From: Actinomycetospora cinnamomea
Lineage (GTDB): Bacteria > Actinomycetota > Actinomycetes > Mycobacteriales > Pseudonocardiaceae
Assembly (NCBI RefSeq): GCF_003096675.1
Contig: NZ_QEKW01000002.1
Coordinates: forward strand, 1-64,000
Direction of reading: 5' to 3'
Length of the DNA: 64,000 bases
In this document: positions 101 through 57,737 of the stretch, in pieces
Numbering within the stretch: the stretch's first letter is position 1
How the letters are laid out: each line of letters opens with the position of its first letter
Notes under the pieces: generated by a model
What the model was told of the DNA's origin: nothing
The model's database searches: none
What the model saw: the letters and a program-made list of their open reading frames with translations, nothing else
Position numbers and translations under genes: made by a program

Positions 101-140
101 GTGCGTGCTCTCCGGTGCCCTGGCACGGAGAAGCGCTCAC
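101..140. repeat. 40-bp dispersed palindrome, class A copy 1
   Basis: Starts GTGCGTGCTCTCCGGTGCC and ends GGCACGGAGAAGCGCTCAC; the arms pair with one bulged G. The stop codon of the TetR gene (complement of 137-139) lies inside the terminal CTCAC. It sits between the transposase tail and the TetR gene, which end facing each other, so it can act as a bidirectional terminator. Confidence 0.8.
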
Positions 141-712
141 ACCCCGGGGCCACCCCGCGCCGCGGCCACCAGCTGGGCCGCGGCGGCGCGGGCCGACCGG
201 ATCGCGCCCGGCTCCGCGGCCACCGCCTGCGCCACCAGCGCGCCCTCGTGCAGCACCAGCAGCTGGAGCGCCAGCCCGTCCGGGTCGTCCACGCCGGCGC
301 GCTCGAGCTCGGTCGCGAAGAGCGCCCGGAGCCAGCGCTTCTCGTCGTCGATCAGCGCCCGGCCCGGGTGTCCGGGATCGTCGAGCTCGGCGAAGGCGTT
401 GACGAAGGCACAGCCGCGATCGGCCACCCACGACCCGAGCACGTCGAACGGGGCGAGCACGCGGCTCACCGGGTCGCCGGCGGCCTCGAGCGCGTCGGAC
501 ACCCGGTCGCGCCACCGCTCGTCGCGGGCCCGCAGGTACGCGGCCACGAGCGCGTCCTTCGAGCCGAATCGGTCGTACAGCGTGCGCTTGGTGACCCCGG
601 ACGCGGCCGCGATCGTGTCCACCCCCACCGCGTGGATGCCGCGGGCGTAGAAGAGCTCCGAGGCGACCTCGAGAATCCGCCGGGCGCCCGGGGTGAGTGT
701 GTCGCCGGTCAT
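137..712 (-). CDS. TetR/AcrR-family transcriptional regulator
   Basis: A 191-residue repressor. The N-terminal helix-turn-helix spans about residues 10-55 (ILEVASELFYARGIHAVGVD, then SGVTKRTLYDRFGSKDALV), followed by a helical ligand-binding region typical of the family. ATG at 712 is chosen because GGAGG lies 5 bases upstream; a GTG at 733 is also in frame but has no such signal and lies in the operator. The gene is divergent from the MDR oxidoreductase at 786, and a 15-bp-arm inverted repeat lies between them, so it probably represses that gene and itself. The ligand is unknown. The stop codon is embedded in a dispersed palindrome. Confidence 0.9.
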   Translation of the reverse strand: MTGDTLTPGARRILEVASELFYARGIHAVGVDTIAAASGVTKRTLYDRFGSKDALVAAYLRARDERWRDRVSDALEAAGDPVSRVLAPFDVLGSWVADRGCAFVNAFAELDDPGHPGRALIDDEKRWLRALFATELERAGVDDPDGLALQLLVLHEGALVAQAVAAEPGAIRSARAAAAQLVAAARGGPGV

Positions 713-730
713 CGGGCCTCCGCTGGACTT

Positions 731-770
731 CACTGATCTGTGAACTTAGTGTCGGGTTCACAGGTCAGTG
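731..770. promoter_or_regulatory. Probable TetR operator between divergent genes
   Basis: Inverted repeat CACTGATCTGTGAAC (731-745) and GTTCACAGGTCAGTG (756-770): 15-bp arms with one mismatch and a 10-base spacer. It fills the gap between the TetR gene and the MDR oxidoreductase, where both promoters must lie. Size and position fit a TetR dimer-pair operator. Confidence 0.8.
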
Positions 771-785
771 TAGTCGGAGGTCGAG

Positions 786-1844
786 ATGGTCCCGGACGAG
801 ATGCAGGCGGCGGTGCTCACGGGGTTCGGTGGGCCGGAGGTGCTGGAGGTGCGCTCGGTCCCGGTACCCCGGCCCGGCGACGGCGAGGTGCTGGTGCGGG
901 TCGCGGCGGCCGCGCTGAACAACACCGACATCTGGACCCGCCAGGGCGCCTACGGGCTGCCGGGCGACCCCGACGCACGGGCGGGCTGGCGGGGCCCGGT
1001 CGACTTCCCGCGCATCCAGGGCGGGGACATCGCCGGTGAGGTCGTCGCGGTGGGCGGGGGCGTGGACCCCGCGCGCGTCGGGCGGCGGGTGCTCGTCGAC
1101 CCGGCGTTCTACGACGGGCCCGGCCCGGACGCGCGTCCGGTCGGCCTGCTCGGCAGCGAGGCCGACGGCGGGTTCGCGGGCTACGCCGTGGCGGCGGACG
1201 AGCGTGCCCACGACGTCACCGACTCGCCCCTGACCGACGACGAGCTCGCGGCGCTCCCGGTCGCCTACGGCACGGCCGCCGGGATGCTGGCCCGCGGCGG
1301 GATCGCCGGGGGCGAGACGGTGCTGGTCACCGGGGCGTCGGGCGGGGTGGGGCTCGCGGCGGTGCAGCTCGCGGCGGCCCGGGGCGCGCGGGTCGTGGCG
1401 ATCACCGCGGCCGGGAAGGAGGAGGCGGTCCGCGAGGGCGGGGCGGCCGAGGTCGTGCTGCGCGATCGCGACCCGGCGGCGGTCGCCGACGCCGTGGGGC
1501 GCGTCGCGGGCCGGCCGCTCGACGCCGTCGTGGACGTCGTGGGCGGCCCGCTGCTGCCCGCGCTGCTCGACCGCGTCCGTGACGGCGGACGGTGGGTGAT
1601 CGCCGGGGCGATCGGCGGGGCGCGCGTGGACCTCGACCTGCGGCGGCTCTACCTGCACAACGTCGCGCTCGTCGGCTCGTCGATGCACACCCCGGCCCAC
1701 TTCGCCGAGCTCGTCGCCGACGCGGTCGCCGGGCGCGTCCGCCCCCGCATCGCCGGGCGCCGCCCCCTGAGCGCGATCCACGAGGCGCAGGAGGAGTTCG
1801 CCCGCGCCGAGCACGTCGGGAAGATCGTGGTCCACCCGGGGTGA
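786..1844 (+). CDS. MDR-superfamily oxidoreductase (quinone oxidoreductase/zinc-free alcohol dehydrogenase type)
   Basis: A 352-residue medium-chain dehydrogenase/reductase. The GroES-like N-terminal domain covers about residues 5-150. The Rossmann domain has GASGGVGLAAVQLA near residue 180, the NAD(P)H-binding motif. The GHE-type catalytic zinc motif is replaced by GGDIAG, so it is more likely a zinc-independent quinone oxidoreductase-type reductase than a classical alcohol dehydrogenase. ATG at 786 follows GGAGG by 7 bases. It is divergent from a TetR gene with a strong operator between them, suggesting induction by a reactive carbonyl, quinone or xenobiotic. The substrate cannot be read from the sequence. 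Confidence 0.88.
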   Translation: MVPDEMQAAVLTGFGGPEVLEVRSVPVPRPGDGEVLVRVAAAALNNTDIWTRQGAYGLPGDPDARAGWRGPVDFPRIQGGDIAGEVVAVGGGVDPARVGRRVLVDPAFYDGPGPDARPVGLLGSEADGGFAGYAVAADERAHDVTDSPLTDDELAALPVAYGTAAGMLARGGIAGGETVLVTGASGGVGLAAVQLAAARGARVVAITAAGKEEAVREGGAAEVVLRDRDPAAVADAVGRVAGRPLDAVVDVVGGPLLPALLDRVRDGGRWVIAGAIGGARVDLDLRRLYLHNVALVGSSMHTPAHFAELVADAVAGRVRPRIAGRRPLSAIHEAQEEFARAEHVGKIVVHPG

Positions 1845-1862
1845 CCTCGGTGCTCCCCACCC

Positions 1863-1902
1863 GTGCGTGCTCGTCCGTGCCGGGGCACGGACGAGCACTC
1901 AC
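1863..1902. repeat. 40-bp dispersed palindrome, class A copy 2
   Basis: GTGCGTGCTCGTCCGTGCC and GGCACGGACGAGCACTCAC flank a 2-base centre. It lies between the convergent MDR and epoxide hydrolase genes. The epoxide hydrolase stop (complement of 1899-1901) is inside the CTCAC end, and the MDR TGA (1842-1844) is in the TGACCTCGG flank that partly matches the class A flank. Probable bidirectional terminator. Confidence 0.85.
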
Positions 1903-3065
1903 GAGCGCGCCAGCGCAAACGCCGTCCGCAGCTCGTCGACGAAGTCGCCGGGCACCTCGAGGGAGGCGAAGTGCCCGCCGGTCGGGAGCACGTTCCAGTG
2001 CCGCAGGTCGGTGTAGCGCGCCTCCACCCAGGCGCGCGGCACCTTGACCATCTCGGCGGGGAAGTACGACACCGCGCTCGGGACCGTGACCGGGCTGAGG
2101 TCGCCGCGCGCGAAGCTCTCCCAGTACAGGCGCGCCGACGAGGCGCCCGAGGCGGTCAGCCAGTAGACGGCGGCGTTGTCGAGGACCCGGTCGCGGGGCA
2201 CGCCGCCGAAGCCGTCGCCGTCGGTCCAGGCGACGAACTTCTCGGCCATCCACGCGAGCTGGCCCGCGGGCGAGTCGACGAGGCCGTAGCCCAGCGTCTG
2301 CGGCCGGGTGCGCTGCTGGCCGGAGTAGCCGGAGCCGACCCTGCGGAACTCGTCGGTCCCGGCGAGCCACCGTCGCTCGGTCTCGTCCAGCTCGGCCAGC
2401 ATCGCGTCGTCGAAGCCCTCGGGGCGCGGGGCGATCGGCATGGTGGTGTGCATCATCGCCACCCGGTCGGGGTGGCGGAGCGCGAGGCTCGTCGTGATCA
2501 TCGCGCCCCAGTCGCCGCCCTGGGCGAGGAAGCGCTCGTAGCCGAGGCGGGTCATCAGCTCGGCCCACGCGTCGGCGATGCGCTCGACGCCCCAGCCGGG
2601 AGCGGTGGGCTTGTCGCTGAAGGCGTAGCCGGGCAGCGACGGCGCGACCACGTGGAAGGCGGGGCGCGTGTCGTCGCCGGGGTCGGTGAGGGCGTCGAGG
2701 ACGTCGAGGACCTCGACCACCGACCCCGGCCACCCGTGGGTGATGATCAGTGGCAGAGCGTCACGACGTGGTGACCGAACGTGGAGGAAGTGGACGCCGA
2801 GACCGTCGATCGCGGTGCGGTACTGACCCCGTCGGTTGAGCTCGTCCTCCACCCGCCGCCAGTCGTGCTCCTCGAGCCACGCGCGGCACAGCTCGGTCAC
2901 CGCGTCGAGGCCCAGGCCCTGCGACGGGTCGGTCGCCGGCTCGGGCAGCCGGACCCGCCGGAGCCGTTCCCGCAGGTCGAGGAGCTGTTCGTCGGGCACG
3001 TCGAGCACGAACGGGACGACCTCGACGGACGGATCGCCGGTCGGCACCGGTGCGGAGGCGGCCAC
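1899..3065 (-). CDS. Epoxide hydrolase (EHN plus alpha/beta-hydrolase)
   Basis: About 388 residues. An epoxide hydrolase N-terminal domain (about 10-120, with VPDEQLLDLRERLRRVRLPE) precedes an alpha/beta-hydrolase fold. GGDWG carries the expected nucleophilic Asp, THGWPGS is the oxyanion-hole HGXP motif, and GGHF near the C-terminus holds the catalytic His. The family hydrates epoxides to vicinal diols in the cytosol. The GTG at 3065 gives the usual family N-terminus; the frame stays open to 3179 but the extra residues look non-coding, and no clear Shine-Dalgarno was found, so the start is tentative and may be leaderless. It is convergent with the MDR gene across a palindrome that contains its stop. 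Confidence 0.88.
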   Translation of the reverse strand: MAASAPVPTGDPSVEVVPFVLDVPDEQLLDLRERLRRVRLPEPATDPSQGLGLDAVTELCRAWLEEHDWRRVEDELNRRGQYRTAIDGLGVHFLHVRSPRRDALPLIITHGWPGSVVEVLDVLDALTDPGDDTRPAFHVVAPSLPGYAFSDKPTAPGWGVERIADAWAELMTRLGYERFLAQGGDWGAMITTSLALRHPDRVAMMHTTMPIAPRPEGFDDAMLAELDETERRWLAGTDEFRRVGSGYSGQQRTRPQTLGYGLVDSPAGQLAWMAEKFVAWTDGDGFGGVPRDRVLDNAAVYWLTASGASSARLYWESFARGDLSPVTVPSAVSYFPAEMVKVPRAWVEARYTDLRHWNVLPTGGHFASLEVPGDFVDELRTAFALARS

Positions 3066-3241
3066 GACCGCACCGTATCCAGACGCGCGGGACGCCGCCC
3101 AACGATGCGACCCGATCCGGTGGGCGTCCGGACCAGCGCGACACGCCGACGGCTGGAGTTCATGACCCGAACGAGCCAACTTCGCGGCGAGGTGTCACAC
3201 GGGACCGCATGGTGGCGATGCACGAAGCGGAGGTGATCAGC

Positions 3242-3469
3242 GTGCTGAACGATCGATCGGCCGTGCTGCTGGCCGCGGCGGCGGACCTGGACGAGTGCGA
3301 CGGGTACGTCGTGCTGGTGTTCGACCCGGAGACCGGGGAGCTCGACGCCCACGGCCCCTACGAAGGGGTCGAGGCCACCCTGCGCGCCGAGGAGATGCGG
3401 CGGGAGTTCGACCACGACGGCCTCCGCGACATCGTCATCCGCGTCTCGCGGCTGCATCGACCGCGCTGA
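3242..3469 (+). CDS. Small conserved-looking acidic protein, 75 residues, unknown function
   Basis: GTG at 3242 is preceded by GGAGGTGATCA, an unusually complete match to the anti-Shine-Dalgarno, 2 bases upstream; this decides the start over the in-frame ATGs at 3209 and 3218. The protein is acidic and compact (about residues 15-50 contain DECDGYVVLVFDPETGELDA), with a basic tail RVSRLHRPR. I do not recognise the family. It lies just upstream of the thiamine-diphosphate enzyme in the same direction but is separated by 56 bases with its own signals, so co-transcription is possible but not shown. Confidence 0.65.
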   Translation: MLNDRSAVLLAAAADLDECDGYVVLVFDPETGELDAHGPYEGVEATLRAEEMRREFDHDGLRDIVIRVSRLHRPR

Positions 3470-3525
3470 CCCCGCCCGGTCCGGGGATACTCGCCCGGCG
3501 GGATCACAGCCGGGAGGGGTGTGGG

Positions 3526-5139
3526 ATGGCGGACGGACCGACGGTGCGGGAGGCCTCCCTGGAGGTGTTCCGGGCCCACGGGATGACCACCGTGTTCGGC
3601 AACCCGGGCTCCACGGAGCTGCCGATGCTCGCCGACCTGCCGGACGACTTCCGCTACGTGCTCGGCCTGCAGGAGGCCGCCGTGGTGGGCATGGCCGACG
3701 GCTACGCCCAGGCCACCGGACGTCCCGCGCTGGTCAACCTGCACACCGCGCCCGGCGTCGGCAACGCCCTCGGCGCGCTGGTGAACGCCGCGGCCAACGG
3801 CGCGCCGCTCGTCGTCACCGCGGGCCAGCAGGTCCGCCCGATGCTCAACCTCGAAGCGCTGCTCACCAACCCGGACGCCACCGTCCTGCCGCGCCCGACC
3901 GTGAAGCTCTCGCTCGAGCCCGCCCGCCCGGCCGACGTGCCCGCCGTGCTGGCCCGCGCCGTGCACGCGGCGGCGACCCCGCCGCGCGGTCCGGTGTTCG
4001 TCTCGGTCCCGATGGACGACTGGGACGCCGTGCTCGACCCGGAGACCGAGGCGGCCGCCGCCGTCGCCGCACGCCGCGTGCACCACCGCGCCGGACCCGA
4101 CCCCGACGGCCTCGCCGCGTGCGTCGCCGCGCTGGACCGCGCGCGGTCCCCGGCCCTGGTCGTCGGCGGCGACGTCGACGCCACCGGCGGCTTCGACGAC
4201 GCCGTCGCCCTCGCCGAGCGGCTCGGGGCGACGGTGTTCGCCCCGCCCTCGGACGGCCGCGTCGGTTTCCCCACCGACCACCCGCAGTTCCGGGGCGCGC
4301 TGCCGATGGCGATCGCGCCCGTGGCGGAGGCCCTCGAGGGGTTCGACGTCGTCCTCGTCGTCGGCACGGCGGTCTTCCGCTACTACCCGTACGTGCCGGG
4401 CCGGTTCCTGCCCGAGGGCACGCGGCTGCTGCACGTCACCGCCGACCCGGACCAGGCGGCGCGCGCCCCGGTGGGCGACGCCGTCGTCGCCGACCCGACC
4501 CTGACGCTGCGGGCCCTGTGCGAGCGCGTCGGCCCGGGCCCCGACGACCGCACGGCCCCACCGCCCGCGCAGGAGCTCGCCGCACCCCGGGCCGGCGGCG
4601 ACGGGCGGGTGTCCGCCGAGGAGGTCTTCACGACCCTCGCGCAGGAGTGGCCCGAGGGCGGGGTGCTCATCAACGAGGCGCCCTCGCACCGGGCGATCGC
4701 CCAGGCGCGCGTGCCGCTGGCCCGGCCCGGGAGCTCGTACTTCACCGCCTCCGGGGGCCTGGGCTTCGGCCTGTCCGCAGCGGTGGGCGTGGCGCTCGCG
4801 GACCCGACGCGTCCCGTGCTGGCGGCGATCGGCGACGGCTCGTTGCAGTACACGGTGCAGGCGCTCGCGTCGGCCGCGGCGCTGCAGGTGCCGGTGACGG
4901 TGCTCGTCCTGGACAACCGCGAGTACGCGATCCTCAAGTGGTTCGCCGCGCGCGAGCAGACCCCGAAGGTGCCGGGGCTCGACCTGCCCGCGATCGACCA
5001 CGTCGGGCTCGCCCGGGCCTACGGGGTGCCCGCCGAGAGCGTCGGGAGCGTCGAGGAGCTGCGCGCGGCGCTGCGGCGCGGCTTCGCCGGGCCGGGCCCG
5101 CGGCTGGTGCACGTCCCGGTGCCGCCGTCGGAGCACTGA
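3526..5139 (+). CDS. mdlC: Benzoylformate decarboxylase-like thiamine-diphosphate enzyme
   Basis: 537 residues, the normal length for ThDP-dependent 2-ketoacid decarboxylases. The N-terminal Pyr domain has FGNPGSTELP (Ser26 position of P. putida BFD) and LHTAPG (His70 position). The central domain has the benzoylformate-decarboxylase-like segment DHPQFRGALP and VFRYYPYVPG. The C-terminal PP domain has GDGSLQYTVQAL followed by the Asn of LVLDN, the ThDP/Mg motif. The family decarboxylates benzoylformate to benzaldehyde in the mandelate route, but no other mandelate gene is visible, so the substrate is uncertain. Start ATG follows GGGAGGGG. Confidence 0.82.
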   Translation: MADGPTVREASLEVFRAHGMTTVFGNPGSTELPMLADLPDDFRYVLGLQEAAVVGMADGYAQATGRPALVNLHTAPGVGNALGALVNAAANGAPLVVTAGQQVRPMLNLEALLTNPDATVLPRPTVKLSLEPARPADVPAVLARAVHAAATPPRGPVFVSVPMDDWDAVLDPETEAAAAVAARRVHHRAGPDPDGLAACVAALDRARSPALVVGGDVDATGGFDDAVALAERLGATVFAPPSDGRVGFPTDHPQFRGALPMAIAPVAEALEGFDVVLVVGTAVFRYYPYVPGRFLPEGTRLLHVTADPDQAARAPVGDAVVADPTLTLRALCERVGPGPDDRTAPPPAQELAAPRAGGDGRVSAEEVFTTLAQEWPEGGVLINEAPSHRAIAQARVPLARPGSSYFTASGGLGFGLSAAVGVALADPTRPVLAAIGDGSLQYTVQALASAAALQVPVTVLVLDNREYAILKWFAAREQTPKVPGLDLPAIDHVGLARAYGVPAESVGSVEELRAALRRGFAGPGPRLVHVPVPPSEH

Positions 5140-9400: not shown

Positions 9401-9440
9401 GTGAGCGATCTGGGTCGCCACGGCGACCCGGATCGCTCAC
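9401..9440. repeat. 40-bp dispersed palindrome, class B copy 1 (bidirectional terminator)
   Basis: GTGAGCGATCTGGGTCGCC and GGCGACCCGGATCGCTCAC form a near-perfect stem. It lies between convergent genes, 10 bases from the TGA of the DUF2267 gene and 9 bases from the stop of the DinB-type gene. Confidence 0.85.
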
Positions 9441-9449: not shown

Positions 9450-10058
9450 TCAGACCACGCTGAAACCCGCGGGCAGGGGCGCGCGGCCGGTGAGAGCGTG
9501 GATGATCGCCGGGCCGTGGCCCAGCCGGACGCCGGTGCGGGCGAGCAGGGCGGCCACGCCGGCCGTCGTCCCCTCCGAGAACGTCACGTCCAGCCCGGTC
9601 GCGGCCGCGATGTCGTGGCCGTGCACCACGAGCTCCACGGTGCGCGTCGGCACGTAGGACGCGACGCGCAGCCCGCCGGCGATGGTCTCGATCAGCGCGT
9701 CCGGGTCCGCCGCGCGGGCGGCCGCCACCGCGCGGTCGGCGAGGTCACGGAACGCGCCCGCCGGGTCGTCGCCGAGCGCGGCCCCGGCGTCGCGGCCCCG
9801 CTGGGCGACCGCGGCCTGGTCGAAGCCCTCGCCGGTCATCGACGGCAGCAGGGCGTAGTAGCCCTCGGGGTCGGGGACGTCCTCGCGCTCCGCGGGGCGT
9901 CCGAGGTAGGTCAGGACGGTGACGAACGACCGGCTCGTGTGCCCCACCAGCGCGCGCAGGTCCCACTCACCCAGCGCGGGCCGGTCCCAGGCGTCGTCCG
10001 GGATCCGCGCCACCAGCTCCGTCACGGCCGTCGCGGCCTCGGCGTAGGCATCCAGCAC
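9450..10058 (-). CDS. Maleylpyruvate isomerase-family mycothiol-dependent enzyme (DinB-like)
   Basis: 202 residues from a GTG at 10058. The N-terminal helical DinB/MDMPI fold starts LDAYAEAATAVTELVARIP and contains WDLRALVGHTSRS; the His there and the HxH of LVVHGHDIA are the usual metal-ligand positions. Family members use mycothiol as thiol cofactor, but most are uncharacterised. The frame runs on to 10094, but that part lies inside a 40-bp palindrome, so the downstream GTG, immediately after the palindrome and at the normal family N-terminus, is preferred. It is downstream of the wrbA-like gene in the same direction. Confidence 0.78.
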   Translation of the reverse strand: MLDAYAEAATAVTELVARIPDDAWDRPALGEWDLRALVGHTSRSFVTVLTYLGRPAEREDVPDPEGYYALLPSMTGEGFDQAAVAQRGRDAGAALGDDPAGAFRDLADRAVAAARAADPDALIETIAGGLRVASYVPTRTVELVVHGHDIAAATGLDVTFSEGTTAGVAALLARTGVRLGHGPAIIHALTGRAPLPAGFSVV

Positions 10059-10098
10059 GTGAGCGATCTTCTCGGCTATAGCTGGGAAAATCACTCAC
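10059..10098. repeat. 40-bp dispersed palindrome, class B copy 2
   Basis: GTGAGCGATCTTCTCGGCTA and TAGCTGGGAAAATCACTCAC pair with a few G-U or mismatch positions. It separates the wrbA-like gene (stop at 10106) from the next co-directional gene, whose GTG start is directly adjacent. It could terminate wrbA transcripts or mask the downstream start. Confidence 0.8.
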
Positions 10099-10105: not shown

Positions 10106-10714
10106 CTACGCGATCAGCTTCGCCGTCACCTGTGCCAGGCGGGTGCCCTGGACGCGGGCGGCGTGCAGCGCGTCGTCGTCGGGCGCGGCCGACTTCTTCG
10201 ACACCCACGACGCGCCGTAAGGGTTCCCCGAGGACATGAGCGACGGGTCGGCGGCGTAGCCGAGCGGCATCACCAGCGTGCCCCAGTGGTAGAGCACGTT
10301 GTTCATCGCGAGGATCGTCGACTCCAGCCCCCCGTGGCCGGTCGACGCGCTGGTGAACGCCGTGCCGACCTTGTCCGCGAGCTTGCCCTGCGCCCACAGC
10401 CCGCCGGTGGTGTCCATGAACGCCTTGAGCTGCTCGGCGGCGTTGCCGAACCGCGTCGGGCTGCCGAACGCCATGCCGTCGGCCCACTCGAGGTCGTCGA
10501 GGGAGGCCTGCGTGTCGTACGGGTTGCCCTCCACCCAGGCCTTCCACCGGCGGTTCGCCTCGATCGCCTCGGCCGGTGCCCGCTCGGCGACCGGCCGCAC
10601 GCGCGTCTCGGCGCCGGCGTCGCGGGCCCCCTGCGCGAGCGCCTCGGCGAGCGCGGCCACGTTGCCGGTCGCGGAGTAGAAGACGACGACGATGCGGGGC
10701 GCACGGTCGGTCAC
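10106..10714 (-). CDS. WrbA-type NAD(P)H:quinone oxidoreductase (flavodoxin fold)
   Basis: 202 residues, the standard WrbA length. The FMN phosphate loop is VVFYSATGNVAALAEAL; further flavodoxin/WrbA motifs are FGSPTRFGNAAEQLKAFMD, GTAFTSASTGHGGLEST and a C-terminal GTRLAQVTAKL. The family reduces quinones by two electrons with FMN. GTG at 10714 follows GGGAGG at about 6 bases; the longer open frame upstream is not needed. It is divergent from the PucR gene at 10806. Confidence 0.9.
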   Translation of the reverse strand: MTDRAPRIVVVFYSATGNVAALAEALAQGARDAGAETRVRPVAERAPAEAIEANRRWKAWVEGNPYDTQASLDDLEWADGMAFGSPTRFGNAAEQLKAFMDTTGGLWAQGKLADKVGTAFTSASTGHGGLESTILAMNNVLYHWGTLVMPLGYAADPSLMSSGNPYGASWVSKKSAAPDDDALHAARVQGTRLAQVTAKLIA

Positions 10715-17353: not shown

Positions 17354-17390
17354 CCTACGGTTGACGATTCGCGAATCGTCAACCTACGGT
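17354..17390 (+). promoter_or_regulatory. Palindromic operator inside a leaderless promoter of the ClpC2-like gene
   Basis: Positions 17360-17383 form a perfect 24-bp palindrome (left half GTTGACGATTCG), bracketed by direct copies of CCTACGG. On the plus strand TTGACG (17361-17366) and TACGGT (17385-17390) are spaced 18 bp, and the ATG at 17397 lies 6 bases after the -10, implying a leaderless mRNA. The palindrome occupies the -35 and spacer, ideal for repression. The symmetric -35 could also serve the divergent MerR-methyltransferase gene. Confidence 0.8.
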
Positions 17391-18572: not shown

Positions 18573-18612
18573 GTGCGTGCTTTCCCGTCCTATAGCACGG
18601 ACAGGCACTCAC
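18573..18612. repeat. 40-bp dispersed palindrome, class A copy 3
   Basis: GTGCGTGCTTTCCCGTCCTA and TAGCACGGACAGGCACTCAC pair imperfectly. The cbiO stop (complement of 18609-18611) is inside CTCAC, and the other side carries the flank CTTTGCCCTCCGGGCTC, whose complement supplies the Shine-Dalgarno of the PPOX gene. Stop codon, hairpin and next ribosome site are thus packed within about 60 bp. Confidence 0.8.
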
Positions 18613-26565: not shown

Positions 26566-27281
26566 GCCGCTGGGACGAGATCCGCGCGGGCCGCGAGGTG
26601 CTCGCCGACGACGACCTGCTGGTGCTGGACAAGCCCGCCGGGTGGTCGGTGATGGGCGAGCGCCACGACACCGACCTCGTGCGCCTGGCCCGCGACGCCG
26701 GCGAGACCCTGTGGCCCGCGCACCGGATCGACAAGGTGACGTCCGGGCTCGTGCTCTTCGCCCGGCGCCTCGAGGTGCACGGCGCGCTGACCCGCCAGTT
26801 CGCCGACCGCAGCGTCACCAAGACCTACCTCGCCGTCGCCGCCGGGACGGGCCTGCCCGCGGCCGGGACGATCGAGCTGCCGTTGTCGGTAGGGCGCAAG
26901 AACCGGGTGCGCGTCGCCGCGCCCCGCGAGGCGATCACGCGCGAGGGCGACCGCTGGGCCGTGCCCGACGACGCCGTGCTGCCCGGGGACGTCTACCCCT
27001 CGACGACGACGTTCGAGCGGCTCGCCGAGGCCGAGGTCGAGGGCGCCGGACGCACCCTGCTGGCGGTGTCGCCGCTCACGGGACGGCGCCACCAGATCCG
27101 CGTGCACCTCGCGTGGATCGGCCACGCGCTGATCGGCGACCCGCTGTTCACGAAGTCCCCGGCCACGCGCACGGGCCTGCACGCCTGGCGTCTCGGCTTC
27201 ACCGGCCCCGACGGCACCCGCCACGACCTCGAGGCGCCGCCCGGCGACGACTTCCGCGCCCTGGGTGCCTTCGGCGCGTGA
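26562..27281 (+). CDS. RluA-family RNA pseudouridine synthase
   Basis: 239 residues. The catalytic motif [13 protein letters not shown] carries the nucleophilic Asp; [13 protein letters not shown] and [20 protein letters not shown] are the other RluA-family blocks. There is no N-terminal S4 domain. Its GTG overlaps the menF TGA. The TGA at 27279-27281 lies in the GTGAG end of a class C palindrome that separates it from a convergent SRPBCC gene. Which rRNA or tRNA it modifies cannot be told. Confidence 0.9.
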
Positions 27282-27332
27282 GCAGGAGGAAGTGCTCCAG
27301 CACCTCGTCCTGCTCACGTGCGCGGAGCGCAC
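27278..27332. repeat. Dispersed palindrome, class C copy 1, with second hairpin
   Basis: A 40-bp stem (GTGAGCAGGAGGAAGTGCT and AGCACCTCGTCCTGCTCAC) at 27278-27317 is followed directly by GTGCGCGGAGCGCAC (27318-27332). The rluA-like stop is in the first GTGAG and the convergent gene's stop begins two bases after the second hairpin. Confidence 0.88.
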
Positions 27333-27333: not shown

Positions 27334-27783
27334 TCACGCCAGGGCTTCGGCGAGGCGGCCGATCGTCATCCGCATCTGCTCGGCGGTGACCTCGCGGACG
27401 CGGCTCAGGATCGCCTCGTCGGTGACCGCCGACCAGTCGTGGGTGTGAGTCACCCGCGTGCGGTCGTCGTCGGTGGCCTCGAGCTCCCAGCTCCAGACGT
27501 GCCCCGACGGCTCGGCGCCCGGCCTGGCCGGCGCCCACGCCAGCGCCCGGTCGGGCTCGTAGCGCACGACGTGGTTCTCCACCCGGTAGCGCCCGCGGTC
27601 GGGGTGCTCCATGTCGATGACGAAGACGTCGCCGACCTCGGTGATCGCGAGGTGGGTGTGCGACGCCCGCACCGTGCCGCTGCCGTCGAGGTCGGGATGC
27701 CGGTCGGGGTCGGCGAGCAGGGCGAAGACCCGCTCGACCGGCGCGTCGACGATGTCGCTGACCGAGATCTGCGTGTCGCTCAC
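27334..27783 (-). CDS. SRPBCC (polyketide cyclase/START-like) family protein
   Basis: 149 residues. The N-terminal [27 protein letters not shown] is the standard opening of the SRPBCC fold; [21 protein letters not shown] is the central sheet and the C-terminal long helix runs through [19 protein letters not shown]. Such proteins bind small hydrophobic ligands; no catalytic prediction is possible. It converges on the rluA-like gene and is divergent from the macrodomain gene, with 42 bases between their starts. Confidence 0.85.
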
Positions 27784-30399: not shown

Positions 30400-30439
30400 G
30401 TGAGCGGACTTCCCGGCTGCAGCCGGGAAGTCCGCTCAC
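30400..30439. repeat. 40-bp perfect palindrome, class B copy 3
   Basis: GTGAGCGGACTTCCCGGCTG followed by its exact complement, 20-bp arms with no loop. The esterase stop (complement of 30436-30438) lies in the right CTCAC. It separates the esterase 3' end from the start of the His-rich membrane gene. Confidence 0.9.
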
Positions 30440-35879: not shown

Positions 35880-35935
35880 GTGCGCTCCGCGCACATGAGC
35901 ACGAAGAAGTGCTTCCAGCACTCCTACGTGCTCAC
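35880..35935. repeat. Dispersed palindrome, class C copy 2 (inverted orientation)
   Basis: The small hairpin GTGCGCTCCGCGCAC (35880-35894) is followed by the long one (ATGAGCACGAAGAAGTGCT and AGCACTCCTACGTGCTCAC, loop TCC). Relative order is the mirror of copies 1 and 3. It lies 7 bases after the stop of a 44-codon ORF and upstream of merR. Confidence 0.85.
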
Positions 35936-39031: not shown

Positions 39032-39063
39032 CAGATGCTTCCTTCCGTTCGACCTTCGGTCTT

Positions 39064-39103
39064 GTGCGCGCGTGTCCGTGCCCCGGCACGGAGATCCGCT
39101 CAC
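39064..39103. repeat. 40-bp dispersed palindrome, class A copy 4
   Basis: GTGCGCGCGTGTCCGTGCC and GGCACGGAGATCCGCTCAC. The stop of the gene at 39100-39417 (complement of 39100-39102) lies in the CTCAC end, and the class A flank (CGACCTTCGGTCTT) leads to the DUF2267-like gene's start. Confidence 0.85.
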
Positions 39104-40543: not shown

Positions 40544-41410
40544 GTGGCCTGGTCAGGGTGGTTCCACGCGCGGCCCGTCGCCCGCGGCGTGTGGCTCGTC
40601 GCCGAGCCCGGGCACGTCAACTCCTTCCTCGTGGCCGGACGGGACCGGGCGGTGCTGGTCGACTCGGGGCTCGGCATCGCCCCGATCCGCCGCGTCGTCG
40701 AGGCCCTCACCGACCGCCCGGTGGACGTCGTGCACACCCACGCCCACCTCGACCACGTGGGCGGCGACGCGGAATTCGACCGGGTCGCGATCCACCCCGC
40801 CGGCGTCGCCGAGCTGCGGGCGGGCGCGAGCGCGTCCGAGCGGCGCCGCTACCTCGCCCACACGCGCCGGATGCTGACGGCGGCCGACGCGTACCGGGCG
40901 CTCGACCGCGACTTCTTCCACCTGCTCTCCGCCGACTCCGACCCGCGCCCGCTGCCGCCCGGGGTCGACGAGACCACCTGGGCGCCCGGCCCCGCGCTGG
41001 AGCCCGCGCTGCTCGCCGACGGCGACGTGGTCGACCTCGGCGGGCGCGCGCTCACCGTGCTGCACACGCCCGGGCACAGCCCCGACTCCGTCTGCTTCCT
41101 CGACGAGCACGCCGGGCTGCTGTTCGGCGGGGACACGGTCAACACCGGACCCACGTACGCCCAGGCGCCGGAGTCCGACCTCGCCGCCTTCGCGGCCTCG
41201 ACGGCGCGGCTCGCCGACCTCGCCGACGACGTGCACCTCGTGCTCATGGCGCACTTCGGGCGGGCGGTGGCCGAGGGCGCGTACCTGCGCGAGGTCGCGG
41301 CGGCCTTCGCGCGGCTGCTCGCCGGCGACGCCGTCCTGCGCCCGGCCCGCGACTGCGACGACGACCCGGTCCGCGAAGCCGTCTTCGACGCCTGCTCGAT
41401 CTACCTTTGA
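40544..41410 (+). CDS. Metallo-beta-lactamase-fold hydrolase
   Basis: 288 residues. HTHAHLDHVGG is the HxHxDH metal-binding motif, LHTPGHSPDS the second His, and LLFGGDTVNTG the bridging Asp. These are binuclear zinc hydrolases of glyoxalase II/lactonase type; substrate unknown. GTG at 40544 starts MAWSGWFHARPVARGV. The TGA lies in CTTTGACCTCC, the outer flank of a class A palindrome. It starts the plus-strand run MBL-GT4-GT9-AKR. Confidence 0.88.
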   Translation: MAWSGWFHARPVARGVWLVAEPGHVNSFLVAGRDRAVLVDSGLGIAPIRRVVEALTDRPVDVVHTHAHLDHVGGDAEFDRVAIHPAGVAELRAGASASERRRYLAHTRRMLTAADAYRALDRDFFHLLSADSDPRPLPPGVDETTWAPGPALEPALLADGDVVDLGGRALTVLHTPGHSPDSVCFLDEHAGLLFGGDTVNTGPTYAQAPESDLAAFAASTARLADLADDVHLVLMAHFGRAVAEGAYLREVAAAFARLLAGDAVLRPARDCDDDPVREAVFDACSIYL

Positions 41411-41461
41411 CCTCCGGTCTCGTGCGCGCTTGCCCGTGCCCCGGCACGGGGAAGCGCGCAC
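41406..41461. repeat. 40-bp dispersed palindrome, class A copy 5, with full flank
   Basis: The hairpin is 41422-41461 (GTGCGCGCTTGCCCGTGCC and GGCACGGGGAAGCGCGCAC). The flank TTTGACCTCCGGTCTC (41406-41421) is identical, reversed, to the flank at 43673-43688. The MBL stop TGA (41408-41410) lies in the flank; the far end reads GCGCAC, not CTCAC. Confidence 0.88.
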
Positions 41462-42658: not shown

Positions 42659-43635
42659 TCGACCTGCTCGGCGGGCTCGGCGACCTGATCATGGTGCTGC
42701 CGAGCGTGCACGCGCTGGCCGACGCGCACCCGGGCGCGGAGCTGACCGTGCTGACCCACGCCCCGAGCGTCCCACTGCTGGCCCGCGACCCCGCCGTCGC
42801 CGCGGTACGCACGGCCGAGAAGCACGACGAGCGCGCCGCAATCGAGCAGGCCCTCGTCGACCTGGCCCCCGACCTGACCGTCACGACGACGCGCTTCGAC
42901 GGCATCGGCGACCTCGTCGAGAGCGACGCCGCCGCCCGGGGGACGAGGGCCGTCGCGAACCTGTGGCGGAACCCGCCGCCCGACGAGCTGGTGGGAGAGC
43001 GCTACCAGCGCATCCTCGCCGCCGAGGGCGTCATCGCCGACGAGCTCCGACCCCCGCGCGTCGTCCTCACCGACGACGAGCGCGCGCGGGGTCGGGACGC
43101 GCTGGTCCGAGCAATGCGGCTTTGCTGGCATCAGACGCCAGGATCGCCACATCCTCGCCCGCGCGACACGCCGACCGTCCTCGTCCCCGACGCCGGGATG
43201 GCCGTCAAGCGCTGGCCGGCGCGCCGGTGGGCGGAGCTGGCGGCGTCGCTGCCCGGCCCCGTGCTGTCGGTCGGCCCGGTCGAGGGTGCGGCCGAGCTCC
43301 CGCCGACCGACCTGCGCGGCCTCGGCGCCCTGTTCGCCGCGGTCGGCGAGGCCGGCGGCACCGTCGTCGGCCCCGACACCGGCCCGGTCCGGCTGGCCGC
43401 GGCCGTGGGCACGCGCACCGTCGGCCTCTTCGGGCCCACGGCGGCCTCGCGCTACGGGCTCGAGGAGGGCACCAACCTGCAGGGCCTGCCCGGATGCCCG
43501 TACCGGATGCCGACCGCGATCACCGAGCAGGTCTGCTGGTGGGATGCCGGATGTCCGCTGGCCCCCGAGCCCGCGTGCCTGCTCGACCTGCCCGTCGAGC
43601 GTGTGCGCGAGCACGTCCTCGATCCGATCCTGTGA
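42640..43635 (+). CDS. Glycosyltransferase family 9 with an in-frame repeat-derived insert
   Basis: 331 residues. RRILLIDLLGGLGDLIMVLP is the GT9 N-terminus; VVGPDTGPVRLAAAVGTRTVGLFGP is the nucleotide-sugar site, and a Cys-containing C-terminus follows (GCPYRMP, CWWDAGCPLAPEPACLLDLP). Between the two Rossmann domains the stretch MRLCWHQTPGSPHPRP is encoded by the 35-bp dispersed repeat at 43108-43142 plus neighbouring bases; family members normally pass directly from the helix to the beta strand (TVLVPDAGMAVKRWP). GTG at 42640 follows GAGAGGTGA. The TGA sits in a 40-bp palindrome. Confidence 0.85.
   Translation: MRRILLIDLLGGLGDLIMVLPSVHALADAHPGAELTVLTHAPSVPLLARDPAVAAVRTAEKHDERAAIEQALVDLAPDLTVTTTRFDGIGDLVESDAAARGTRAVANLWRNPPPDELVGERYQRILAAEGVIADELRPPRVVLTDDERARGRDALVRAMRLCWHQTPGSPHPRPRDTPTVLVPDAGMAVKRWPARRWAELAASLPGPVLSVGPVEGAAELPPTDLRGLGALFAAVGEAGGTVVGPDTGPVRLAAAVGTRTVGLFGPTAASRYGLEEGTNLQGLPGCPYRMPTAITEQVCWWDAGCPLAPEPACLLDLPVERVREHVLDPIL
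43108..43142. repeat. 35-bp dispersed repeat inserted in frame in a GT9 gene
   Basis: CGAGCAATGCGGCTTTGCTG, 7 bases, ACGCCAGG: same order and spacing as the complement of 38483-38517, with one difference in the 28 conserved bases. It lies in the linker between the two domains of the glycosyltransferase. Base composition drops locally compared with flanking codons. Confidence 0.75.
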
Positions 43636-43688
43636 GTGCTTCCCCGTGCCCCAGCACGGGAAGGCACTCACGAGACCGGAGGTCAAAG
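43632..43688. repeat. 40-bp dispersed palindrome, class A copy 6, with flank
   Basis: Hairpin 43632-43671 (GTGAGTGCTTCCCCGTGCC and AGCACGGGAAGGCACTCAC) carries the GT9 stop TGA at 43633-43635. The flank GAGACCGGAGGTCAAAG follows, then the aldo/keto reductase start at 43707 with its own GGAGG. Confidence 0.88.
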
Positions 43689-43706
43689 GCGGGTAGAACG
43701 GAGGAC

Positions 43707-52697: not shown

Positions 52698-52754
52698 GGC
52701 GACGCGGCCCGCATCGTCGCGGGGCTGCCGCTGCGGACGGCGGCCGCCGGCTGA
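52698..52754 (+). pseudogene. Remnant of a second reactivase small-subunit C-terminus
   Basis: The 18 codons GDAARIVAGLPLRTAAAG end in TGA and match GHDAARVVTGVPLKLV of the intact gene at 52543-52590; the DNA GACGCGGCCCGC-TCGTC is nearly identical. No start or upstream reading frame remains. A small hairpin GCTCG/CGAGC at about 52675-52690 separates the two and may terminate the operon. Confidence 0.55.
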
Positions 52755-52772
52755 CGCCCGGCACCAGCCGGC

Positions 52773-53768: not shown

Positions 53769-53797
53769 GCTCCTCTCCGGCGGTGCCCCGCGGGCAC

Positions 53798-53852
53798 GTG
53801 AGCGGGAAGAAGTGCTGGGGCGCCTCGAAGTGCTCACGTGCGCGGAGCGCAC
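53798..53852. repeat. Dispersed palindrome, class C copy 3, between divergent genes
   Basis: Hairpin 53798-53837 (GTGAGCGGGAAGAAGTGCT ... CGAAGTGCTCAC) plus GTGCGCGGAGCGCAC at 53838-53852. Unlike the other copies it lies upstream of two diverging genes, where a terminator role is not obvious. Confidence 0.85.
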
Positions 53853-53873
53853 CCCGCGGCGAGACTGGCGCGG

Positions 53874-55556
53874 ATGAGCCTCACGACCGCCCTGCTGCGC
53901 CGGGCGATGCGCCTGCCCGCGCCCCGCGCCCGGCGCGTGTCGGTCGACCGCGACGTCGCGGTCCCGATGCCCGACGGCACCGTCCTGCGCCACGACCACC
54001 ACCGTCCCGCCGGGGTGGCGCGGGGTCCGGTGGTCGTGGTGCGCAGCCCCTACGGGCGCGCGGGGTGGGTCGGCACGGTGTTCGGGCGCCTCGTCGCCGA
54101 GCGCGGCCTCCAGGTCGTCGTGCAGTCGGTGCGCGGCACGGCCGGTTCCGGCGGCGTCCTCTCGCCGTTCGACGAGGCCGACGACGGGTGCGCGTTCGTC
54201 GCCTGGGTGCTCGACCAGCCGTGGTGCGACGGGCGCCTGGCCACGCTCGGCCCCAGCTACCTGGGCCTGACGCAGTGGGCCCTGGCCCCGGCGGCGGGCG
54301 GGGCCCTGCGCGCCATGGGCACGCTGGTCACCGCGTCCTCGTTCCGCGGCCAGACCTACCCCGGCGGCGCGTTCTCGCTGGACAACGCCCTGTCCTGGAC
54401 CTCGACGATGCGCACGCTCGCCGCCGGGCCCGTCGTCCGCGTCGTGCGGCTGCTGCGCGGGCGCCGCAACGTCGTCGACGCCCTCGACGCGCTGCCCCTG
54501 AGCTCCGCCGACTCGCGCGCCACCGGCGGCCAGGTCGACTGGTTCCAGGACTGGCTGCGCGAGTCCGACCCCGACTCGGCGTACTGGGCCCACCGCTCCT
54601 ACGGCGCCGGCATCGACGACGTCGCGCGGGCCGGGGTCGAGGTGGTGATGCTCGGCGGCTTCTCCGACATCTTCCTGCCCTGGCAGCTCGCCGACCACGC
54701 CGCGCTGCGGGCCGCCGGGGCGCGCCCGCGGCTCGTGCTGGGCCCGTGGGTGCACACCGCGGGCCCGGGCATGGCCGCCGGGATGCGCGAGTCGCTGGCC
54801 GCGTTCGAGCGGGTGCTCGACGGCGGCGGCGCGACGACGGCGGCGACCACCACGCAGACACCGGTCGCCGTGACGCTGTCCGGCGGCGGGGGCAGCCGGC
54901 GGCTCGCGGACTGGCCGCCGCCGGACGCCGTCGAGCGCACCTGGTACCTGCGCGCCGACCACTCCCTGTCGGTCCAGCCGCCGCCCGACCGGACCGACGG
55001 CGCCGTGCGCTGGCCCGGTACGCGGGTCGACTACGACCCCGGTGACCCCACCCCGGCCGTCGGCGGCCCCATCCTCACGGGCCGCTCGGGCCCCCGCGAC
55101 CAGTCCGCGCTCGAGGCCCGCCCCGACGTCGCCGTCTTCTCCTCCGACCCGCTCGCCGACGACGTCGTCGCCCTCGGCCCGGTGTCGGCCACGGTGCACC
55201 TGCGCACGGAGGTCGGGCACCTCGACGTCTTCGTCCGCGTCTGCGACGTCGACCCCCGCGGGCGCTCGGTGAACATCACCGACGGCCTCGTCCGCCTGAC
55301 CCCGGGCTCGCCGCCCACCGCCGCCGACGGCACCCGCGCGGTGACCCTGGACCTCTGGCCGACCGGTCACCGCTTCGCCGCCGGGCACCGGCTGCGCGTG
55401 CAGGTCTCCGGCGGCGCCCACCCGCGCTTCGCCCGCAACCCCGGGACGGGCGAACCGCTGGGCGAGGCCACGACGCTCGTGCCCCAGCCCCGTGAGGTGC
55501 TCCACGACGCGGCCCACCCCACCGCGGTGACGCTGGCCGTCGAGCCGAGGCACTAG
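53874..55556 (+). CDS. CocE/NonD-family hydrolase (X-Pro dipeptidyl-peptidase S15 type)
   Basis: 560 residues. The S15 alpha/beta-hydrolase domain has VRSPYGRAG and GPSYLGLTQ with the nucleophilic Ser; FSDIF supplies the Asp and GPWVHTAGP the His. The C-terminal part from about 400 is the jelly-roll domain of the family (LGPVSATVHLRTEVGHLDVF, WPTGHRFAAGHRLRVQVSGG). Members hydrolyse esters such as cocaine or N-terminal peptides. ATG at 53874 is chosen; the longer frame would start within the palindrome. Confidence 0.9.
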   Translation: MSLTTALLRRAMRLPAPRARRVSVDRDVAVPMPDGTVLRHDHHRPAGVARGPVVVVRSPYGRAGWVGTVFGRLVAERGLQVVVQSVRGTAGSGGVLSPFDEADDGCAFVAWVLDQPWCDGRLATLGPSYLGLTQWALAPAAGGALRAMGTLVTASSFRGQTYPGGAFSLDNALSWTSTMRTLAAGPVVRVVRLLRGRRNVVDALDALPLSSADSRATGGQVDWFQDWLRESDPDSAYWAHRSYGAGIDDVARAGVEVVMLGGFSDIFLPWQLADHAALRAAGARPRLVLGPWVHTAGPGMAAGMRESLAAFERVLDGGGATTAATTTQTPVAVTLSGGGGSRRLADWPPPDAVERTWYLRADHSLSVQPPPDRTDGAVRWPGTRVDYDPGDPTPAVGGPILTGRSGPRDQSALEARPDVAVFSSDPLADDVVALGPVSATVHLRTEVGHLDVFVRVCDVDPRGRSVNITDGLVRLTPGSPPTAADGTRAVTLDLWPTGHRFAAGHRLRVQVSGGAHPRFARNPGTGEPLGEATTLVPQPREVLHDAAHPTAVTLAVEPRH

Positions 55557-55573
55557 CGACTCGACGAACGGCG

Positions 55574-55600
55574 CCCCGACTGCCCCGACTGCCCCGACTG
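55574..55600. repeat. Three tandem copies of CCCCGACTG
   Basis: Short 9-bp tandem repeat in the 172-base gap between two co-directional hydrolase genes. No other signal is evident in this gap. Confidence 0.6.
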
Positions 55601-55728
55601 CTCCGTCGGAGTGAGGCGACGCGGCCGCTGGGACCCCGGTCACACCGCCCGTCGGCCGCGGGGAGCACCTGGTCGACATCACCGGCCGGCGGGCTGGAGG
55701 CGGCGGCGGAGACGCCGATCCTGGGTCC

Positions 55729-56712
55729 ATGGCCGTCCTGCCCACCGAGCGGGCCGGCGCGACCCCCGGCGTGCCCGGGACGTCCGCCCCGGCTCCCGCC
55801 TCCGCGCACCAGCGACCCCGTCCCCGTCCGGTCCACGGCGTGCGCACCAGCGACGGGGTCCCGCTGCACGTCGAGATCCGCGGTCACCAGGGCCCCACCG
55901 TCGTGCTCACCCACGGTTTCACCGTCGACTCGACGGAGTGGTCGCCGCAGGTCGCGGCCCTCGCCCATCGCGCGCGGGTGGTGACGTGGGACCAGCGGGG
56001 CCACGGACGCTCGGGCTGGGGCGACCCGCGCCGCGCCACGATCGACCAGCTCGGGCGCGACCTGGCGGCCGTCGTCGAGGCCGTGGCCCCGTGCGGGCGG
56101 GTGGTGCTCGGCGGGCATTCGATGGGCGGCATGAGCGTGCTCGCGCTGGCCCGCCGCCACCCCGAGTGGTTCGGCACGCGGGTGGGCGGCGTGTTCCTCG
56201 TCGCCACCTCCGCCGGCGACCTCGTCTCCGACGGCCTGCTCGGCGTGCTGCACGCCACGGCGCGCCGGGCCGGCGTGCTGCCCGCGGTGCTCCAGGGCGC
56301 CCGCCTCGCGGCGCCGCTGGCCGACCAGCTGCCGTGGCGCGACTCGCTGCTGGGGCGCTGGCTCGTGCGTCGGCTCGCGTTCACCCCCGACGCCACCGAC
56401 GACGAGGTGCGGCGCCTGCAGACGGTCACCGAGAGCGTCCCGCTCCCGGTGACCTCGGCGTTCTCGTCCACTCTTCTCGACCACGACGAGACCGACGCGC
56501 TCCCCGCGCTGGCGCGGATCCCGACCACCGTCGTGGCCGCCACCGACGACCGGCTCACCCCGGCCGCGCACGGCCGCCGCATCGCCGAGACGCTCGGCCC
56601 GCGGGCGCGCCTGGTGCTGGTCGACGGCGCGGGACACGCGGTCAACCAGACCCACCACGCGGTGGTCGACGCCGCGCTGCTGGACCTGGTCGACCGGCTG
56701 CGCCACCGGTAG
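55729..56712 (+). CDS. Alpha/beta-hydrolase
   Basis: 327 residues. The hydrolase starts about residue 38 after a Pro/Ala-rich leader. VVLTHGFTVDSTEW is the oxyanion HG motif, GGHSMGGMSVLALA the nucleophile elbow with Ser, AATDDRLTP the Asp and GAGHAVNQTH the His. A cap insertion with hydrophobic residues lies at about 165-235. The substrate is unknown. The leader (MAVLPTERAGATPGVPGTSA) is not a clear signal peptide and the true start may be later. Confidence 0.87.
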   Translation: MAVLPTERAGATPGVPGTSAPAPASAHQRPRPRPVHGVRTSDGVPLHVEIRGHQGPTVVLTHGFTVDSTEWSPQVAALAHRARVVTWDQRGHGRSGWGDPRRATIDQLGRDLAAVVEAVAPCGRVVLGGHSMGGMSVLALARRHPEWFGTRVGGVFLVATSAGDLVSDGLLGVLHATARRAGVLPAVLQGARLAAPLADQLPWRDSLLGRWLVRRLAFTPDATDDEVRRLQTVTESVPLPVTSAFSSTLLDHDETDALPALARIPTTVVAATDDRLTPAAHGRRIAETLGPRARLVLVDGAGHAVNQTHHAVVDAALLDLVDRLRHR

Positions 56713-56849
56713 CGTCCCCGGCGCCCCATCGGCCGGTCACCGGCCACGCATGTGTGAGCACACCGCGTACGGGGCACTGACCATCTGCACAGGAACTCCG
56801 GTTCAGACACCAGCCGGGTCAGCTCATACCGAAAGAGCGCCCCGCCTGC

Positions 56850-56870
56850 ATCCGGAGCCCGCCTCCGGAT
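56850..56870 (+). promoter_or_regulatory. Hairpin in the sigF leader
   Basis: ATCCGGAG, five bases, CTCCGGAT forms an 8-bp stem 25 bases before the sigma-factor ATG, upstream of GGGGGTGA. It may modulate translation or be an operator. The region 56713-56849 shows no convincing promoter that I can name. Confidence 0.5.
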
Positions 56871-56895
56871 CCTCGGGGCCCCTTGGGGGTGACCG

Positions 56896-57687
56896 ATGGC
56901 CGGACGCAGTAGTGATTACGACGAGTACGTCCCGTTGCTGGAGGAGTACGCGTCCCTGCCCGACGACGACCCACGACGCGAACGCGTCAGGGAGAAGCTC
57001 GTCGTGGGTTTCCTACCCGTGGCCCGCAACATCGCCCGCCGGTTCGCCCGGCGTGGCGAACCGACCGACGACCTCGAGCAGGTGGCCTCGCTGGGCCTGC
57101 TCCACGCGCTCGACCGCTTCGACCCGGGCCGCGAGCGGGACTTCCTGTCCTACGCGGTGCCGACGATCATGGGCGAGGTCCGCCGCCACTTCCGTGACTC
57201 GGCCTGGTCGGTGCGCACGCCGCGCAGCGTCAAGGACCGCTACGTCGCGGTCGGGTCGGCGACGGCGTCGCTGTCCCAGCAGCTGGGGCGCGCGCCCACG
57301 GCGGCCGAGCTCGCCGAACACCTGGGCATGAGCCGCGACGAGGTCGCCGAGGCGATCGCCGCGCACGGTTCGTACCAGCCCGCGTCGCTCGACGAGTCCC
57401 TCGGCGACGGCGACGACTCGGCGCTCATGGACATCCTCGGGGTGCCCGACGGCGAGCTCGACCGCGTCGAGGTCCGCACGCTGGTCGGGTCCCTGGTCCG
57501 CGACCTGCCCGAGCGCGAGCGCACCATGCTCGCGCTGCGGTTCGTGCACGAGAAGACGCAGGCCGAGATCGCCTCGGTCCTGTGCATCTCGCAGATGCAC
57601 GTCTCGCGGCTGCTCTCGCGCACGCTGGCCGCGCTACGCGACCAGATCGAGCGCGAGTCGAGCATCGAGCAGCTGGTGGCGGTCTGA
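56896..57687 (+). CDS. sigF: SigF/SigB-type alternative sigma factor
   Basis: 263 residues. Region 2 is LVVGFLPVARNIARRFARRG, DDLEQVASLGLLHALDRFDP and YAVPTIMGEVRRHFRDSAWS, the SigB/SigF RNAP and -10 recognition block; region 3 has LGRAPTAAELAEHLGMSRDE; region 4 is MLALRFVHEKTQAEIASVL then ISQMHVSRLLSRTLAALR. It directs stress or development genes. No anti-sigma (RsbW) or antagonist gene is adjacent, unlike many sigF operons. Followed after 10 bases by a perfect palindrome. Confidence 0.92.
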   Translation: MAGRSSDYDEYVPLLEEYASLPDDDPRRERVREKLVVGFLPVARNIARRFARRGEPTDDLEQVASLGLLHALDRFDPGRERDFLSYAVPTIMGEVRRHFRDSAWSVRTPRSVKDRYVAVGSATASLSQQLGRAPTAAELAEHLGMSRDEVAEAIAAHGSYQPASLDESLGDGDDSALMDILGVPDGELDRVEVRTLVGSLVRDLPERERTMLALRFVHEKTQAEIASVLCISQMHVSRLLSRTLAALRDQIERESSIEQLVAV

Positions 57688-57697
57688 CTCCTCCCAT

Positions 57698-57737
57698 GTG
57701 AGCGATCTTCGCGGCTACAGCCGCGAAGATCGCTCAC
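57698..57737. repeat. 40-bp palindrome, class B copy 4 (terminator)
   Basis: GTGAGCGATCTTCGCGGCT, two-base loop, AGCCGCGAAGATCGCTCAC: perfect 19-bp arms. It begins 11 bases after the sigF stop and before the co-directional Rieske oxidoreductase gene, as expected for a terminator. Confidence 0.9.

Follow-up and report, generated by a model that had tools for sequence, protein, structure and literature searches.

The described systems closest to the elements reported here are small interspersed palindromes and hairpins at the ends of genes. A hallmark of the REP/RAYT system (repetitive extragenic palindromes and REP-associated tyrosine transposases) is a GTAG-type tetranucleotide preceding an imperfect hairpin; SPRITE repeats are terminator-like, and some actinobacterial terminators are GC-rich hairpins without a U-tract. 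The subject of this study is a family of 40-bp palindromes in a stretch of 64,000 nucleotides from Actinomycetospora cinnamomea (contig NZ_QEKW01000002.1, positions 1 to 64,000), referred to below as the window. The location of REPs no more than 15 nt from stop codons has been discussed (PMC12306157), and Rickettsia palindromic elements (RPEs) are reported to be about 150 bp long and to insert in frame into coding sequence (PMC10969869).

Like REP/RAYT repeats, the palindromes are short hairpins dispersed at the 3' ends of genes, present in many copies and patchily distributed, but they have a fixed 40-bp symmetric core, free arms, and built-in stop codons, and 30 of the 31 carriers tested lack the Y1 transposase. 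As with miniature inverted-repeat transposable elements (MITEs), enterobacterial repetitive intergenic consensus (ERIC) sequences, SPRITEs, and RPEs, very small palindromic pieces occupy many insertion places, and at one site (43632) we encountered, as for MITEs, an insertion into an empty site; they differ from all of these in that no consistent target duplication was seen and in arms of unrelated sequence. They are much shorter than RPEs, and they supply the stop codon of a gene end rather than an in-frame insert. With the actinobacterial terminators that lack a U-tract, they share a strong GC-rich hairpin at or just past the stop codon, whereas the ordinary hairpins of the genomes studied vary in length and none of 155 had a stop at -3. 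The palindromes behave as known small palindromic repeats (REP, ERIC, SPRITE, and RPE), with a geometry and a stop-codon register of their own. We consider it probable that they form a family of mobile hairpins of very small size, akin to MITEs and REPs, which lodge where genes end and carry their own stop codon. In the open-access literature we recognized no description of such a 40-bp family; subscription journals lay mostly outside the scope of this search, and an earlier description is possible.

A 40-bp core with free arms

An earlier note, made from the letters of the window alone, had listed thirteen exact 40-bp palindromes with constant length and GTG(A/C)G-type ends. The pattern is real and far above chance. 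Read as 40-mers, eleven of the thirteen have 13 or more of the 20 possible Watson-Crick pairs (range, 13 to 20), and the ends GTG(A/C)G...C(T/G)CAC are present in 12. The remaining two are not exact: the copy at 53798..53837 is degenerate (11/20 pairs), and the one at 35895, which lacks the first G and begins with A, scores 3/20 because it is a degenerate 41-bp variant (35895..35935) with one indel. The common form of the core is GTGAGY-N10-GCYNNRGC-N10-RCTCAC. When strong palindromes were sought in the window without reference to the list, 16 matches emerged, 8 of which were listed copies with scores of 12 to 21; the corresponding numbers for three first-order Markov controls were 1, 7, and 4, with no score over 13. 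Strong palindromes outside the family, with other ends and lengths, are found at 17359..17384 (26 bp), 60049..60087 (39 bp), and 726..775 (50 bp). A search of the window against Rfam 15 gave no match over the gathering score.

Core length was assessed by a census of palindromes that have the ends GTG(A/C)G...C(T/G)CAC, an inner pairing of at least 60%, and a length of 24 to 70 bp. The window contained 11 such palindromes at 40 bp versus 2 at all other lengths, and 400 kb of contig C1 contained 8 versus 4. The census was less clean in other samples, which are referred to by genome labels: G015 (16 versus 8), G030 (5 versus 0), G037 (1 versus 3), G044 (0 versus 1), and G003, where 8 at 40 bp stood against 11 distributed over nine other lengths, each with 2 at most. 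In the window, contig C1, G015, and G003, 40 bp is the length that recurs. Equally long palindromes with other termini do exist, since 40-mers of this kind with at least 15/20 pairs number 16 to 65 per sample when matches anywhere, including coding and off-register ones, are counted; the ordinary hairpins outside genes, however, span lengths of 25 to 72 bp, and 40 bp does not stand out among them (7/125).

The arms had been described as diverse yet complementary, and this was confirmed. Copies from five species were selected on their ends and on at least 14/20 pairs, and one of the 59 extracted (L093:15790), which is not family-like, was removed. In the 58 aligned copies, the 18 modeled pairs are formed in 92.6% of the cells, a percentage inflated by this choice of copies, compared to 66.7% in shuffles and 29 to 46% in slid alignments. 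Thirteen pairs vary on both sides, and there are 285 both-sided versus 15 one-sided changes, which indicates that the symmetry of the arms exists at the DNA level.

The cores of Actinomycetospora are often adjoined, on one or both sides, by a mini-hairpin of 14 to 18 bp. All 23 GGTGCGCTYCGCGC arms adjoin a core, which is intact in 19 cases and degenerate in 4, and 18 of the 20 TTTGACCTYCGGTCTY arms fetched adjoin an intact one. The TTTGACCTYCGGTCTY-type (TTTGACC) unit is mostly one-armed, and AC or AG directly follows the core in 15 of the 18 intact copies (loci L307 to L326). The data suggest that TTTGACC-type copies are an asymmetric element of roughly 58 to 60 bp. Copies in a distant genus (g109 of family f34, probably Micromonospora of the Micromonosporaceae) have mostly ATGG...CCAT flanks. 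A constant GTAG tetranucleotide beside the hairpin was not found; the flanks are mini-hairpins or lineage-specific.

Stop codons, insertion, and core exchange

Gene ends were surveyed in about 1.64 Mb from five species containing 61 copies, with genes from a home-made caller that missed at least one Pfam-supported gene (27334..27783), for which it preferred an overlapping call. Copies lie mostly in convergent (25) or tandem (32) gaps, with 2 in divergent gaps, 1 inside a gene, and 1 at an edge. The background, counted as gaps of 20 bp or more, comprises 148 convergent, 582 tandem, and 275 divergent ones. Divergent gaps are thus depleted (2/59 copies versus 275/1005 in the background; p = 5e-6). 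The distinguishing feature is the stop-codon register: TGA occupies bases 2 to 4 of the core at 28 of 84 gene 3' ends, compared to 0/155 at -3 for ordinary hairpins (Fisher p = 6e-15), so that the overlap with stop codons exceeds the chance rate. At 15 other gene ends of the 84 the stop lies 16 bp before the core (TAG in 14), and at 4 it is a TAA or TAG inside the core. Loci of two further carriers were fetched by a 40-bp pattern. All 19 copies of f34/g109 are convergent or tandem, and 11 of 25 gene ends use the same TGA; the 27 copies of Pseudonocardia sulfidoxydans are convergent (11), tandem (9), divergent (1), inside genes (2), or at locus edges (4). The copies in G030 are convergent (3), tandem (1), and divergent (1). 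Genes whose stop lies at -3, -10, or +16 were compared with orthologues that have no copy; in 32 of 50 comparisons, which are pairs and not independent sites, the two gene ends are no more than 2 residues apart (extremes, -19 and +124). Many of the ortholog comparisons show the copy at the stop or a few codons away from it.

In G015 (L067 to L086), 13 of 32 element arms have stop codons in every reading frame over 38 bp, versus 3 of 10,000 random 38-mers. As a rule for the family this feature was dropped, given 1/38 in G000, 2/18 in G003, 0/14 in G005, and 0/20 in G008. The outer-end TAG of the G015 arms seems linked to gene use.

In the window, the seven copies reported to contain the TGA of a neighboring gene all do so with our gene caller. 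Five serve minus-strand genes through their right end: 101..140 (13/20 pairs; gene ending at 137), 1863..1902 (18/20; convergent genes; G008 orthologue without a copy), 18573..18612 (15/20; ABC-transporter gene; no copy in G008), 30400..30439 (20/20; alpha/beta-hydrolase gene; different arms in G008), and 39064..39103 (15/20; left mini-arm at 39048..39063; no copy in G005 or G008). Two serve plus-strand genes through bases 2 to 4, namely, 27278..27317 (17/20; pseudouridine-synthase gene; other arms or none in congeners) and 43632..43671 (16/20), which lies within the end of a GT9 glycosyltransferase gene and provides its stop (TGA, 43633..43635). The copy at 9401..9440 (18/20) separates convergent genes, and the G008 40-mer at this place has other arms (9/30 of the inner bases identical). 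At 41422..41461 (18/20; no copy in G005 or G008), the stop of the plus-strand gene is the TGA of the left mini-arm (41406..41421, TTTGACC...), and 57698..57737 (19/20) begins 11 nt past the stop of a plus-strand gene. The degenerate copy at 35895 has mini-hairpins on both sides; that at 53798 has mini-hairpin arms and same-site copies in G005 and G008. Most copies are intergenic, but the earlier statement that all are is slightly overstated because 10059..10098 (16/20), located 3' of a minus-strand gene ending at 10106, overlaps the predicted start of the minus-strand gene 9450..10094.

The GT9 gene provides a filled and an empty site. In G005 and G008, it is uninterrupted and terminates with EQVLASG-TAG, whereas the protein of the window terminates with EHVLDPIL at the TGA of the palindrome; the old GGGTAG is found downstream, with the leftover TAG at 43694..43696 (plus strand). 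The inserted piece of about 64 to 70 bp (approximately 43622..43687) is found only in the genome of the window and in its sister G007 (89% identical there). The site is empty in seven closely aligned congeners (G010, G005, G008, G017, G002, G012, and G011); eight further ones also lack the piece but are loosely aligned (G015 is unaligned upstream), and G004 lay outside the comparison. The piece is an insertion within the last codons that supplies the stop of the gene. Different C-termini, relative to orthologues that lack a copy, are also seen at 18573, 39064, and 41422 and near 267916 of G003; at 329513 of G003, the gene end LRYVL-TAG is unaltered and the element follows directly.

Another interspersed repeat, some 70 bp long (43101..43173), lies in frame within the same GT9 gene. 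It has many matches in the genome of the window, G010, G011, and G012 (about 83 to 95% among the matches listed), including two outside predicted genes in the C1 sample, and G005 and G008 carry a different, related sequence at the same position of the gene.

Close species can differ in the core at one and the same site. G005 and G008 have 91% identity across 144 kb of alignment; at two of their shared sites, 12/30 and 9/30 of the inner positions are identical, and the flanks agree at 30 to 38 of 40. As judged by eye, the arms at the 30400 site are similar in G000, G007, G010, G002, G017, and G005, of another type in G008, and degenerate in G012 and G011. Several arm types occur across congeners at the 27278 site, where G007, G002, G011, and G017 have, by eye, other hairpins and no 40-mer. 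Based on the insertion at 43632 and on the unlike cores that close species have at some shared sites, we believe that the palindromes are quite likely mobile. The earlier proposal of a mobile palindrome that targets stop codons is thereby supported as to mobility; the preference for gene ends may reflect either targeting or the loss by selection of copies that landed elsewhere.

In addition, a 260-amino-acid gene is inverted between G005 (L258, C10 22292..23178) and G008 (L266). Two similar 40-bp palindromes are present at its borders in G005, and neither border in G008 has a 40-mer.

Distribution among genomes

The scan suggested earlier for the genome and its relatives bore out a family. The genome of the window has 73 matches to the pattern GTGAG-N30-CTCAC (reversed control, 3), and each of 17 Actinomycetospora congeners (17/17) has 65 to 218 strict copies (control, 0 to 4). 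Among 42 other genera of the same family, represented by one genome each, 9 have 42 to 161 copies and 33 have 2 to 21; 40 genomes from other families of the order have 0 to 13. When 394 genomes of the class were searched with the tighter consensus given above, 7 had matches: the genome of the window has 47, and 4 of 12 sampled genomes of f34/g109 match it with 3 to 9 copies each. One copy each was seen in G359 and G111, which belong to other families, and the control reaches one copy in five genomes. G068, from another family, has three model matches, and the matches in these three genomes could be due to chance. Counts with a covariance model, made on both strands, level off at around 117 per genome. 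Carriers outside Actinomycetospora include, among the matches listed, P. sulfidoxydans, P. oroxyli, a Pseudonocardia metagenome-assembled genome, and Saccharopolyspora hirsuta. The core is thus patchily distributed, with copies in related genera and in one distant family.

Half-sites with near-identical arms are abundant in P. sulfidoxydans (317 forward and 322 reverse; control, 0). An origin as terminal repeats of a longer insertion sequence is not suggested by these half-sites, which are, among the matches listed, mostly 40-bp pairs 4 nt apart; a longer element was not systematically sought. The plasmid collection contained no match to one P. sulfidoxydans copy with 20-bp flanks.

Mechanism and competing explanations

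Besides the insertion and the unlike cores, a mobile hairpin family is favored by the stop-codon register, the both-sided pair changes, the abundant near-identical half-sites of P. sulfidoxydans, the core, placement, and TGA use shared with f34/g109, and the patchy distribution. Such a family could work as follows. The piece would move as a folded hairpin, and an enzyme would read its ends, its center, and the fixed arm length rather than the sequence of the arms. During copying or repair, one arm would template the other and Watson-Crick symmetry would be preserved, and arms would for this reason vary among copies yet match within each. Insertions would be aimed at stop codons or survive best there, because the built-in TGA closes the frame and a symmetric hairpin can serve genes from either side; a putative role as terminator is plausible. 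The patchy distribution and the near absence of RAYT point to another mobilizing activity. In its complete form, this proposal is tentative: a non-RAYT system may move and exchange 40-base hairpins by shape (20-bp arms, GTGAG ends, and a GCYNNRGC center), with a preference for stop codons and with symmetry restored by hairpin-templated copying at each move, and may be distributed patchily in the Pseudonocardiaceae and probably the Micromonosporaceae.

A number of observations weigh against mobility at gene ends. (i) Ordinary hairpins outside genes (57 convergent, 63 tandem, and 5 divergent) are also located 3' of genes in 120 of 125 cases, so that placement at gene ends alone is unremarkable. 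(ii) Core swapping is not the rule, since the cores at two other sites shared by G005 and G008 are identical at 27/30 and 26/30 positions, with 22 to 39 of 40 in the flanks; the closest pair compared has only the 91% identity given above, and the 60 Pseudonocardia relatives sampled are too distant to judge recent polymorphism. (iii) There is a single clean filled/empty site, and several other absences coincide with other local changes. (iv) No consistent target-site duplication, of TA or of another sequence, was seen by eye, the ends of the element being known only approximately. (v) No mobilizing gene was found. The selection effect on the pairing percentage belongs here as well.

An alternative that we regard as unlikely is a static bidirectional 3'-end signal, in which a fixed-length hairpin shared by convergent genes is selected on RNA or termination, its arms drift with compensation, and stops abut it for compactness. 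The convergent and tandem placement, with few divergent copies, and the strong folds (z of -2.9 to -16.3 in six copies tested) agree with such a signal, as do the other hairpins that species without the 40-mer show at 27278. It accounts poorly for the recent insertion at 43632, for the rarity of G-U intermediates implied by the 15 one-sided changes, and for the exact 40 bp, for which it offers no reason in genomes whose ordinary hairpins vary in length. There is also no U-tract after the core (mean of 0.85 T in 10 nt on both sides of 61 copies), which speaks against a canonical intrinsic terminator and, to this extent, against the terminator architecture that the earlier note had offered as its second option.

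We consider it very improbable that the palindromes are sites for a chromosomal binding protein or a site-specific recombinase with a fixed 40-bp geometry, spread by ectopic conversion. Conserved ends and center, fixed spacing, and free arms would suit such sites, as would the two palindromes that border the inverted gene in G005. The G008 borders of this gene have no 40-mer, however, the sequence shared outside the arms amounts to about 5 to 6 bp, which is presumably too little for ordinary conversion, and the link to stop codons is given no role. Finally, an identity as REP-like elements mobilized by a RAYT/IS200-type Y1 transposase, to which interspersed hairpins at gene 3' ends would correspond, is largely refuted, because PF01797 was detected in 1 of 31 carriers tested (G045 only) and in 3 noncarriers, with none in 15 Actinomycetospora genomes (G004, G007, and G013 were left out), in P. 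sulfidoxydans and two others reached via loci, or in the 4 carriers of f34/g109.

If the palindromes are indeed mobile hairpins that settle at gene ends, a mobile sequence would persist in compact genomes by landing where genes terminate, bringing along its own stop codon as well as a symmetric hairpin for the 3' end. The fixed-length arms of free sequence predict the recognition features of the mobilizing enzyme, and the C-termini and gene ends of a bacterial family would have been shaped by these palindromes.

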